Origin: Deltaproteobacteria bacterium
GTDB lineage: Bacteria; Myxococcota_A; Polyangia; Haliangiales; Haliangiaceae
Length of the DNA stretch: 44,507 bases
Reading direction: 5' to 3'
Assembly: GCA_019237945.1 (NCBI GenBank)
Contig: JAFAOG010000409.1
Coordinates: forward strand, 1-44,507
In this document: piece after piece, positions 39,507 through 44,473 of the stretch
Layout: the number at the start of each line of letters is the position of its first letter
How positions within the stretch are numbered: the stretch's first letter is position 1
The notes under the pieces: model-generated
What the model was told of the DNA's origin: nothing
The model's database searches: none
What the model saw: only the letters and a program-made list of their open reading frames with translations
Position numbers and translations under genes: made by a program

Positions 39507-41711
39507 TCAGCTCGCCTTTTTCGTTTTCGCGGCCTGGGCCTCGGCCCACGTGACGACTCGGTTACGACCCGTGTGCTTCGCGTGGTAGAGCGCGAGGTCT
39601 GCACGTTCGATCAGGGTCGCGCGGTCGCGGCCGTCATCGGGGAAAGCTGCCACACCGACCGACTCCGTCACGCTGAGCGGCCCCTTGTCGGTATCGACGA
39701 CCACCTTGCTGATCTCGATGCGAATGCGGTCGGCAACGGCCTTCGCCTGCGCGACGTCGACGTTGTCGAGCAGCACCGCGAACTCCTCGCCGCCGTAGCG
39801 CGCGGGGATGTCGATCTTGCGCGGCACTTCCTGCAGTACCTTGGCGACGCGGCGAAGCACCTCGTCACCGATCGGGTGGCCGTAGGTGTCGTTGACCTTC
39901 TTGAAGTGGTCGACGTCGCACAGCAGAAGCGCGACCTTGTGGTTGTGGCGCTGCGCGCGCTGAAGGAGATCCTCGAAGCGCGCCTGGAACGTGCGATGGT
40001 TCGTCAGGCCGGTGAGGCCGTCGGTCGTCGCCATCGTCTCCATCTTCTTGTAGAGGAAGCCGTTCTGGAGCGCGATCGCGACCTGGTTCGCGATCACGGC
40101 GAGCATCTCGCGCACGTCGGAGGAGAAGCGCTTCTCGGCGCGTGCGACGAGCGTCAGCGTGCCGATCGCCTCGTCGGCGGACAGCAGCGGCAGCACGAGC
40201 AGCGACTTCGCATCGTCGACCTTGACCTTGCGCGTGTAGATCGGCGCCGAGACCTCGCGCGGCTCGCCGCCCGCCGGCAGGTAGTGGCGGTTCTTGACGA
40301 CCATCGATGCGAGCCCGGCGTTGTCGCGGAACTCGAGGTCCTTGAGCTGCGCGGGATCGACGAGCCCTTCGCCGCCCGGCGCGACGCGCACCGCCGCGAT
40401 GCGATGCTTGGCGCGATCCTTGTCGTACAGCGCCATCGCCGCGACATCGAACGTCGCGATCGCCGCGCACGCGTCGAACGCGGTCTCCATCACCTGCTCC
40501 GGCGTCAGCGCGCGACCGAGCAGCGCGGTCGCCGAGTAGAACCGCTCGTGCTCGTACTTCGCGCGCTCGACGGCGCGGAACACCTGCTCGGCCTGCACGG
40601 CGCGCAGCACCTGACCGCCGGCGTCCGCGAGCAGATCGCGATCGGCCTCGGTGAACGGCGCGTCGCGATCGGCGGCGAGGATTCCGCGCAGGTGGCCGCC
40701 CTCGCTGATCGGCACGGCGACGAGCGCGGTGCCGGCGCGGCCGCCGTCATAGTAAGGAAGCTGGCCGGGCTTGGTTGCGGCGACGAGCAGCGGCTGGCGA
40801 TCGCGCAGCACGGCCCCGAGCACGCCGGCGCTCGCGAGACGCGGGGCCTCGGTGATGTCGTCGGCATCGCTCGCGACGTCCTTGAGCTTGACGCGCTCGC
40901 CGTCGTCGTCGACCCAGAGCAGCGCGACCGTGCGCGCACCGAGCGAGCGCTTGAGCGTGCCGAGCACCCAGCTCGTCGCGTCGCCGATCATGCCGACGCC
41001 GCCGATCGCGAGCAGTCGCTCTTCCTCGTCACGCGGCCGCGGTGCGCGCGAGCCCGGCCCGAGCGCGGCGGCGATCAGCCGGTAGTCGCGCGCGGAGTCG
41101 CGCAGCGCGGTCAATTCGTCCTCGAGCCGCTTCGCGCGGCGAGCGCGGTAGCGCGAGGTCAACCCGCGCACGAGCACCGCATGCGCGACCGCCGCGCCGG
41201 CGAGGAACACCGCGTGCAGCGATGCCGAGATGACGTGGCCCTCGCTCATCCCGCTGCGCACGAGCAGCGCCGCCTCGAGGCACGCCGCCGCGCCGAGCGT
41301 CGCGATCGCACCGGGCCTCGCGAGCACCGTCATCGCGAACGCGACCAGCCCGTAGAGCAGCGGATACGCGGGCGAGCGCAGCCCGCCGGTCACCGCGATC
41401 ACGACGTGCATGCCCGCGACGAGCGACAGCGCGAGCTCGAGATCGGCGAGGTCCGACGCGGCCGCGAGCCACACCGACACCCGCTGCGCACGCGCGCTCG
41501 GCGGCGCGAACTGCATCCGCCGGATCACGCTGGTGACGACGAGCGCGAGCACCGCCGCCGCCGCCATCGCCTGTGGCAGCTGCACGCGCTCGCCGAGGAT
41601 CTGCGCGCCGTCGACGCCGCCGATCGCGACGGTCACGCACGCGAGCGCCCCCGCGACCGCGCCCACGCTGACCTTCGCCGCTCGCCGCGCGGCCCGCCGC
41701 CACTTCGCCAT
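39507..41711 (-). CDS. Membrane GAF-GGDEF diguanylate cyclase
   Basis: The 734-residue protein has about six hydrophobic segments in the first 190 residues, then two GAF-like domains (about 220-370 and 390-560). A C-terminal GGDEF domain shows LTGLTNHRTFQARFEDLL, the signature RYGGEEF near residue 640, and an I-site RxxD (RKID) five residues before it. It should make c-di-GMP and be feedback-inhibited. The ATG shares one base with the TGA of the upstream ftsB-like gene (TGATG). An envelope or redox signal is the likely input. Its neighbours suggest a link between division and c-di-GMP. Confidence 0.94.
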   Translation of the reverse strand: MAKWRRAARRAAKVSVGAVAGALACVTVAIGGVDGAQILGERVQLPQAMAAAAVLALVVTSVIRRMQFAPPSARAQRVSVWLAAASDLADLELALSLVAGMHVVIAVTGGLRSPAYPLLYGLVAFAMTVLARPGAIATLGAAACLEAALLVRSGMSEGHVISASLHAVFLAGAAVAHAVLVRGLTSRYRARRAKRLEDELTALRDSARDYRLIAAALGPGSRAPRPRDEEERLLAIGGVGMIGDATSWVLGTLKRSLGARTVALLWVDDDGERVKLKDVASDADDITEAPRLASAGVLGAVLRDRQPLLVAATKPGQLPYYDGGRAGTALVAVPISEGGHLRGILAADRDAPFTEADRDLLADAGGQVLRAVQAEQVFRAVERAKYEHERFYSATALLGRALTPEQVMETAFDACAAIATFDVAAMALYDKDRAKHRIAAVRVAPGGEGLVDPAQLKDLEFRDNAGLASMVVKNRHYLPAGGEPREVSAPIYTRKVKVDDAKSLLVLPLLSADEAIGTLTLVARAEKRFSSDVREMLAVIANQVAIALQNGFLYKKMETMATTDGLTGLTNHRTFQARFEDLLQRAQRHNHKVALLLCDVDHFKKVNDTYGHPIGDEVLRRVAKVLQEVPRKIDIPARYGGEEFAVLLDNVDVAQAKAVADRIRIEISKVVVDTDKGPLSVTESVGVAAFPDDGRDRATLIERADLALYHAKHTGRNRVVTWAEAQAAKTKKAS

Positions 41712-42028
41712 CACGGCCGGCGCACCTCGAACACGACCTCGTCGGGGTAGACCATCCCGAGGTCGGCACGCGCGCGGTCCTCGACCGCCCGCACATCGGA
41801 TTGCAGCGCCTCGACATCGCGCGCGAGCGCCGCGTTGCCGGCGGCGAGCTCACGTGCATGTCCGCGCAACTCTTCGAGCTGTTGCTCGAGCTTCATCGCG
41901 CGCGGATCGCGTCGCAGCACCTGGCCCGGCAGGTAGCCGATCGCGATCGCGACGATCACGGCCAGTCCCAGCCGCACGGCCCAGCGGCGGAGCGCGGGCG
42001 CCTCGTGCATGTCGGCCAGATGCTTCAT
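41711..42028 (-). CDS. ftsB: FtsB/DivIC-type septum formation initiator
   Basis: The 105-residue bitopic protein has one membrane helix (RLGLAVIVAIAIGYLPGQVL), then a coiled coil (AMKLEQQLEELRGHARELAAGN cut short here), and the family end RARADLGMVYPDEVVFEV. FtsB bridges FtsL and FtsQ in the divisome. The rest of the division genes are not beside it. Its stop codon overlaps the diguanylate cyclase start. Confidence 0.93.
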   Translation of the reverse strand: MKHLADMHEAPALRRWAVRLGLAVIVAIAIGYLPGQVLRRDPRAMKLEQQLEELRGHARELAAGNAALARDVEALQSDVRAVEDRARADLGMVYPDEVVFEVRRP

Positions 42029-42127: not shown

Positions 42128-44473
42128 ATGAGGGGGATCGTCTGTCTATACGTCTGCGCCGCGCTCGCCGCGTGCGGTGAAGACCACTCCACGACCATCA
42201 AGTGCGGCGCCGGAACGATGGGCACGCTGACCCAAGGCGGGTCGGTCGAAGTGATGAACGGTCAAGATCTGACCGGCGCCGCGATCGCCGCAGACGCGCA
42301 CGTCACGCTGCCGACCGCCGCCGTCTCGATCGCGTGCACCGACGACATCGCACCGACCGGCTTCACCGCGCTCGGCCCCGCCGTCACGTTCGGCGCCGAT
42401 GGCACGTGGTCGGATCGCCCGTTCGATCTGACGCTCCCCTACAAGGCCGCGCGCCTGCCGAAGAACGCACCGAACGGCGCCGTGCGGATCGTCGCGAAGC
42501 CGGCGAACGGCCCCGCGTTCTTCCCGGCCGTCACCAACCGCACGCTCGACGACAAGGACGCCTACGCGTCGCGCGCCGCGTTCCGCGCCAGCGAGCTGAT
42601 GACGTATCAGGTCGTCGCGGCGACCGATGCCGGCACCGCGCGCATGGAGACGTTCGGCGGTAACGCGATCATCGGCGTGTCGATGGGCGGCAACGCCGCG
42701 ATGACGATCGGGCTCAAGCACCCCGACAAGTTCGACGTGATCGTCGACCTCGGCGGCGAGCCCGGCCCGTCGATGATCTACTCGCTCGACATGGTCCGCA
42801 CGTTCCTGTTCGGCGGCTTCTGCACGAAGGACGACGAGGCGGCCGGCCGCGGCATGGTCGGTCAGCTGTGCCCGGCGAAGACGAACAAGCCCGAGCAGCA
42901 CGAGATCGAGTCCGACTACGAGCACATGGTCTATCAGATGGGCGATGGCGTCGGCCTGACGCTGTCGCGCAACCTCTACATGAAGGCGTCGCGCGATCTC
43001 GGCCGCGCGCTCGGCAACCCGGCGCTCTACAACCCGCAGAACGCGTACGCGCCGCCCGGCGTCGACTTCTCGTTCTTCGCGCAGGATGCGGCGACGCGCT
43101 GCGCGAACCCGGTCGTGCTCCGAGACTTCCACGATCGCGAGTTCAACCCGGATGGCAGCAAGCCCGTGATCACGTTCTGCGACGGCGGCGACATGTCGCC
43201 CGCGCTCGGCGTCTTCAACCCGCAGGTCGCGCAGACGAACCCCGCGGAGCTGCTGCTCGCGGTCGATCTCAACAACAACGGCAAGCGCGACTCCGGTGAG
43301 CCGGTGATCACGAACGCGTACGAGCCCTTCAGCGACGTCGGCACCGACGGCAAGGCCGACAAGGACGAGCCCGGCTACGACCCCGTGACGAACCCCGACC
43401 CGAACCACGACGACTATCACTATCTGAAGAACCCGCTCGGCACCGAGGGCAACGGCAACTACGACATGGGCGAGCCGTATGAAGACGTCGGCATCGACGG
43501 CGTCGCGTCGACGTGCCAGGCCGGCTCGACTCCGCCGACCGGCGTCGCCGGTTGCTACGACTACGGCGAGGGCAACGGTCACTGGGACCTCTCGCCGAAC
43601 GTCAAGCGCTGGTACGACTCCGACCTGCAGGTGCGGCTCGCGGCCTTGACGTCCGACCAGCGCCGCCACGTCTCGATGTGGTTCGACGCCGGCATCCGCG
43701 ACTTCCTCAACGCCGGCGTGTCCGCGAACCAGGCGGTCGGCCAGGCGATGGCGACCGGCGAGCTGCCGTTCTCGGTCTACGACACGTTCGGCGGGATCAA
43801 CCCCGGCTCGACGGAAGCGACGTACGACTTCACCGAGACCGACTGGAAGGGCATCGCGCAGAACGGCTTCCTCCGCTACGGCAATCCCGACGCCTCGGCG
43901 AGCGACATCATGAACGGCGACGGCCGCCACGTCGGCACCGCGAACGAGATCATCTATCGCATCGAGACCGGCTTCTCGTTCATCGATCACCGCCTCCCCG
44001 ACGGCGATCGCGATGACGCCCTCGACGGCGGCGTCCTGATGAAGGGCCTGACGTTCACGTCGCCGCATACGGGCCGCATGTCGCCGTACGCGCTCTCGCT
44101 GCCGCCCGGCTACAACGATCCGGCGAACGCGAACAAGCGCTACCCGGTCGTCTACGTCCTCCACGGCTACGGCCAGCAGCCCGACGATCTGATCGCGCTC
44201 TCCGCGATCATCGCGAACCACATGATCGCGACCGAGCCGCTCGCGACGCGCATCCAGAAGCTGATCATCGTCTACGTCGACGGTCGCTGCCGCCCCGATG
44301 CCAACGGCGTGCCCGTGCCGACCGGCGGCGACGGCTGCGAAGGCGGCACGTTCTATCTCGACACGCCGCTCGGCGGCACCGCGCAGATGGAGACGAACCT
44401 GCTCGATCTGATGGCGTACATCGACGCGACCTACCGCACGCGCGGCACGACGCAGAGCTCCGTCAGCTACTGA
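42128..44473 (+). CDS. Lipoprotein with circularly permuted esterase-D-like hydrolase and Ca-binding-like insert
   Basis: MRGIVCLYVCAALAACGED gives lipobox Cys16; the 781-residue protein is anchored outside. Residues 60-165 form a beta-sandwich-like domain (FDLTLPYKAARLP, ELMTYQVVAATD). Then the nucleophile elbow of an esterase appears: IIGVSMGGNAAMTIGLKHPD with Ser185, followed by an acidic stretch (DLNNNGKRD at 380, DVGTDGKADKDE, GNGNYDMGEPYED, GEGNGHWD near 480). The Asp loop WFDAGIRDFL (Asp525) and His candidates near 602-621 come next. Only at the end come KRYPVVYVLHGYG (His679-Gly680), IIVYVDG and TPLGG...YIDATYRT, which normally precede the elbow. The protein stops where the elbow strand should start. 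Substrate unknown. Confidence 0.88.
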   Translation: MRGIVCLYVCAALAACGEDHSTTIKCGAGTMGTLTQGGSVEVMNGQDLTGAAIAADAHVTLPTAAVSIACTDDIAPTGFTALGPAVTFGADGTWSDRPFDLTLPYKAARLPKNAPNGAVRIVAKPANGPAFFPAVTNRTLDDKDAYASRAAFRASELMTYQVVAATDAGTARMETFGGNAIIGVSMGGNAAMTIGLKHPDKFDVIVDLGGEPGPSMIYSLDMVRTFLFGGFCTKDDEAAGRGMVGQLCPAKTNKPEQHEIESDYEHMVYQMGDGVGLTLSRNLYMKASRDLGRALGNPALYNPQNAYAPPGVDFSFFAQDAATRCANPVVLRDFHDREFNPDGSKPVITFCDGGDMSPALGVFNPQVAQTNPAELLLAVDLNNNGKRDSGEPVITNAYEPFSDVGTDGKADKDEPGYDPVTNPDPNHDDYHYLKNPLGTEGNGNYDMGEPYEDVGIDGVASTCQAGSTPPTGVAGCYDYGEGNGHWDLSPNVKRWYDSDLQVRLAALTSDQRRHVSMWFDAGIRDFLNAGVSANQAVGQAMATGELPFSVYDTFGGINPGSTEATYDFTETDWKGIAQNGFLRYGNPDASASDIMNGDGRHVGTANEIIYRIETGFSFIDHRLPDGDRDDALDGGVLMKGLTFTSPHTGRMSPYALSLPPGYNDPANANKRYPVVYVLHGYGQQPDDLIALSAIIANHMIATEPLATRIQKLIIVYVDGRCRPDANGVPVPTGGDGCEGGTFYLDTPLGGTAQMETNLLDLMAYIDATYRTRGTTQSSVSY

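Follow-up and report, generated by a model that had tools for sequence, protein, structure and literature searches.

Type-2 polyhydroxybutyrate (PHB) depolymerases carry the oxyanion hole C-terminal to the catalytic triad (PMC2666664), and in the Penicillium funiculosum enzyme (2D80) Ser39 and His155 precede the oxyanion residues Cys250/Leu251 (PMC7034887). Elsewhere in the alpha/beta-hydrolase fold, permuted or reversed edge strands are found in SE_1780, the Pseudomonas lipase 2z8x and the Rhizopus lipase 1lgy, and in many alpha/beta-hydrolases a lid is inserted between beta6 and the helix that follows it (PMC11878206). Here we describe an open reading frame (ORF) at positions 42128..44473 (+ strand) of a 44,507-nucleotide window, which is the whole of contig JAFAOG010000409.1 from a Deltaproteobacteria bacterium. 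It encodes a 781-residue protein that we take, with a probability of roughly 0.92, to be an exported lipoprotein and a serine esterase of the PF00756/CE1 (feruloyl-esterase-like) group that has undergone circular permutation in nature.

With the CE1/feruloyl esterases of PF00756 (XynZ esterase domain 1jjf, 7xrt and 8z91), the protein shares the sequence family of both halves, the GxSMGG elbow, the putative Asp/His pair, the HG oxyanion motif, and the PPGY and YRT motifs. Unlike these enzymes, it has its halves swapped, the nucleophile coming first, then Asp, His and the oxyanion strand. It further differs by an N-terminal domain, a ~290-residue acidic insert after beta6, a longer Asp-His segment and a strand-like C-terminal tail. 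The original prediction, made from the DNA letters alone, had placed the elbow and the Asp first and HGYG...YRT at the very end, and the translation confirmed this: GVSMGG (Ser185), GIRDFL (Asp525), YPVVYVLHGYG (672-682) and IDATYRT (765-771) are followed by ten residues and the stop codon. In detail, elbow strand beta5 with the nucleophile motif (42662..42691, Ser185 at 42680-42682; PF00756 profile 116-143) leads into the acidic insert that separates beta6 from the Asp strand (42773..43645), then beta7 with the putative catalytic acid (43670..43705, Asp525 at 43700-43702) and His601 in GDGRHVG (43928..43930). A short linker, lying between the profile blocks (residues 624-640, 43997..44047), connects what was once the C-terminal helix to what was once the N-terminal strand. 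The ancestral N-terminal half follows (residues 641-770, 44048..44437; PF00756 profile 2-115, with matches to 8z91 and 7xrt) and comprises beta1-beta4, PPGY, the oxyanion HGYG (679-682), Cys721/Cys737 and the helix ending in YRT. The chain closes with the tail of residues 771-781 and the stop codon (44438..44473). All of these features are on the + strand.

Profile comparisons carry most of the case for a permutation. The Pfam Esterase family PF00756 matched the ORF in two stretches (E=4.9e-10; 40 bits against a cut-off of 22) and was matched by 47 of 48 members of the family at E<=0.01. Once the halves were reordered, these became one continuous match over profile positions 2-149. Both esterase parts are thus present once each, swapped and without duplication. 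In profile comparison with PDB, the nearest solved relatives were feruloyl/CE1 esterases, and not esterase D proper; a CE1/PF00756-type name therefore suits the protein better than esterase D. Residues 640-715 aligned to 34-104 of the XynZ chain 1jjf and residues 179-213 to 147-181, that is, in reversed order. With the family profile, 8z91 was covered nearly without gap or overlap (659-774 to 28-130; 176-208 to 132-164), and 7xrt gave the same picture (657-775 to 43-144; 167-213 to 135-183). Ordinary, unpermuted esterases exist in the same taxonomic order, and they too aligned in a complementary manner: in hhalign the natural chain gave two matches (148.5 and 78.6), whereas the reordered chain gave a single match of 222.7. 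Rotating the start of the core raised the best-match score from 142 in the natural order to ~213 wherever the chain began within 560-640, and cutting inside 680-760 lowered it to 108-132. This indicates that the ancestral ends are joined between His601 and beta1, at about residues 620-640.

The same arrangement recurs widely. Full-length proteins of the same order occur throughout the taxonomic family and order (identity from 70% down to ~31%). Of 318 genomes of the class that were searched, 136 contained the gene (E<=1e-12), as did 100 of 379 genomes sampled across the phylum, other classes included. We extracted ~165 members, all of which have the permuted order of nucleophile, Asp, His and oxyanion strand; one named record among the homologues is a Myxococcales metagenome-assembled genome (L002). 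Every member that reaches a stop codon ends 0-23 residues after the YRT arginine, and in the 129-member alignment used for all conservation counts the tail is 11 residues past R770 in 97 members and never longer than 23. Since over 160 relatives in the phylum share the swapped order and the end point, the gene is, judging from these homologues, genuinely rearranged and probably functional rather than broken. Two copies of the permuted esterase gene on different contigs were seen in G138, G144, G145, G370 and G502, while most genomes have one. No copy was detectable in G001, G008, G015 and G026, close relatives of the source genome, some of whose assemblies are incomplete; the gene is therefore not carried by every member of even the genus or family. 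Viral contigs yielded two distant matches to the C-terminal half only, which were not used as members, and no full-length member was found on plasmids.

The residues of the putative active site are strictly conserved. Ser185 is kept in all 128 members with sequence at that position, Asp525 and His601 in 129/129, and the oxyanion Gly680 in 128/128. The oxyanion His679 is present in 115 of 128 members and replaced by Pro in 13, with Gly680 still kept. The Asp525 region aligned in hhalign with the acid of unpermuted esterases (YLDCGTED). The choice among candidate His residues, left open at first, could be narrowed to His601. Disulphides may form within the pairs Cys325/Cys351 and Cys721/Cys737, whose residues vary little or not at all; this would fit an exported protein.

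Covariation between the two halves was analysed by mean-field direct coupling analysis of 165 members (effective number of sequences, Neff, 129; 316 core columns; 48,265 pairs). The strongest of all couplings was T175-Q776 (z 10.5), which links the pre-elbow segment to the C-terminal tail. M173-Q776, M173-S778, A171-S778, G178-T775 and F176-V779 were also among the top 20, and V184-V677 (beta5-beta3), V204-M517 (beta6-beta7) and L658-I713 among the top 45. Row-shuffled controls reached 3.1-5.3 for between-piece pairs, although shuffling destroys phylogeny and is not a strict null. The pre-elbow segment (residues 167-178, 42626..42661, + strand) and the tail covary as an antiparallel ladder: 169-177 against 773-781 scored 1.90, the highest of 39,770 windows, ahead of 1.02 for the next one that does not overlap it. 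In an alignment-free repeat anchored at Ser185 and R770, T175-Q776 was still on top, with 63 opposite-charge and 0 like-charge combinations. Covariation thus supports a new C-terminal tail that forms a strand pairing antiparallel with the segment entering the elbow, as the permutation requires, and it supports closure of the halves into one fold. Together, complementary profile matches, reordering and rotation, the ~165 homologues and coevolution strongly favour a circular permutation over a broken tandem, as originally proposed.

Several points weigh against this reading. We infer the fold and the activity of the protein from homology and covariation, the hydrolase activity being a prediction, and the covariation set is shallow (Neff about 129). 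AlphaFold was run for the full mature protein and the catalytic part with a two-sequence alignment (the window protein and L002); because the alignment held only two sequences, the predicted local distance difference test score (pLDDT) was 32, and the models were discarded. Taken by itself, the Asp-His block gives a weak alignment to ordinary esterases (hhalign probability 4%), and its Asp-to-His spacing is ~40 residues longer, which is why His601 has no clean alignment to them; its assignment as the triad His thus leans mainly on conservation and stays putative. There is also no operon partner conserved across the phylum, the commonest neighbour being a GGDEF-type gene at 15 homologous loci.

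One rival reading is a domain-swapped dimer, in which proteins of the same order would complete each other's halves between two molecules. Covariation is blind to whether a contact lies within or between chains and would fit interchain contacts equally well. However, the new termini are predicted to be adjacent and the linker between the old termini is short, which makes closure of a single chain simpler, and we consider the dimer improbable. Still less credible is a chance fusion of two unrelated partial domains with no single active site, such as a pseudo-enzyme or a binding protein. The weak alignment of the His block would fit such a fusion, but the pieces complement each other with almost no gap or overlap, they coevolve, and nucleophile, acid, His and oxyanion Gly are invariant. 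That the gene is truncated or frameshifted, a broken tandem or an artefact of assembly, with an ordinary second elbow lost just past the stop codon, might be suspected because the contig ends 34 nucleotides after it. The ~165 homologues rule this out: they come from independent genomes, in several cases from long or near-complete contigs, and share the order, the place of the stop and a strictly conserved triad.

For the permuted single-chain esterase, we propose the following model. It most likely arose when the gene was duplicated in tandem and the outer halves were then lost. The sequence shows that the short linker, placed behind the helix next after the catalytic His, joined the ancestral N- and C-termini, and that the chain was opened between the helix ending in DxxYRT and the nucleophile strand. 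Antiparallel pairing of the C-terminal tail with the pre-elbow segment would let the halves rebuild one sheet. Ester hydrolysis by Ser185-Asp525-His601 and the HG oxyanion loop would follow the usual acyl-enzyme route, with the acidic insert perhaps serving as a Ca2+-stabilised lid over the pocket. The most likely substrate class would be an extracellular acyl or feruloyl-type polymer ester. With its LAAC lipobox, the protein is most likely an esterase anchored as a lipoprotein in the outer membrane or at the surface and working through a normal Ser-Asp-His acyl-enzyme mechanism.

The permuted topology has a precedent in the type-2 extracellular short-chain PHB depolymerases, which have the same general order with oxyanion residues C-terminal to the triad; the kind of rearrangement is therefore already known. 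The fold of 2D80 has been described as a circular permutation. With the family profile, no sequence relation to 2D80 was found even at E=10, and NCBIfam models of type-2 PHB depolymerases did not match the permuted esterase. Given this and the grouping with PF00756, an event of the same kind that probably occurred independently is the simplest explanation. SE_1780, 2z8x and 1lgy likewise show natural strand rearrangement in the same fold (PMC11878206), but there only beta1/beta2 have moved and are reversed, whereas here the whole beta1-beta4 half has moved in its original direction. A search of an open-access library turned up no paper describing this family, a feruloyl esterase with permuted order or a permuted myxobacterial esterase.

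The acidic insert spans residues 216-506 and sits at the same place as the lid of many alpha/beta-hydrolases (PMC11878206). It contains the invariant C325 and C351 and a dozen invariant Asp/Glu residues in D-x-N-x-G/DxGxDG-like repeats (D380, E391, E399, D403, D407, E414, D424, D428, E449, D453, D457 and D478). By analogy these repeats may be Ca2+ sites, and the insert is a likely Ca2+-binding lid. Acidic repeats 48-57% identical to part of the insert are also found in long proteins that lack the permuted core, L226 (G363), L227 (G503) and L195 (3001-3189, on the Candidatus Manganitrophus plasmid CP114559.1); the repeat is a module used elsewhere too. No unpermuted protein with the same insert, as a possible ancestor, was found among 361 sampled genomes, where other matches share the repeats alone. 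Pfam assigned no family to the insert, the N-terminal domain or the Asp-His block when searched alone.

The N-terminal domain (residues 20-164, 42185..42619, + strand) is likely beta-rich. Members of several other classes lack it and start shortly before the elbow, which makes the domain an optional addition to the permuted core. It is preceded by a signal peptide (42128..42175, + strand), recognized by inspection, whose lipobox LAAC (residues 13-16, with Cys16) bears out the predicted lipoprotein. A lipobox-like motif lies within the first 40 residues of 56 of 129 homologues, the start codons of many being uncertain. A more far-reaching proposal joins these elements: phylum-wide permuted CE1-type esterases would have evolved independently, an acquired antiparallel strand pair would hold the new termini, and a Ca2+-controlled lid and the N-terminal domain directly before the nucleophile strand would regulate the active site. 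We put this forward tentatively and think it somewhat less likely than not.

Few natural circular permutations are well supported within large, well-studied enzyme families. The present one is shared by several classes of a phylum and can be set against the many ordinary relatives found in the same genomes, which makes it possible to examine directly how a fold withstands permutation. What holds the new termini together can be approached through the covarying tail, and what the moved termini permit through the N-terminal domain next to the nucleophile. As order-dependent annotation sees two weak esterase fragments, such cases have probably been overlooked.

Upstream of the esterase gene, divergent neighbours at 39507-42028 (- strand) encode a GGDEF-domain protein, with relatives at those 15 homologous loci, and, as judged by eye, a small FtsB-like coiled-coil protein.
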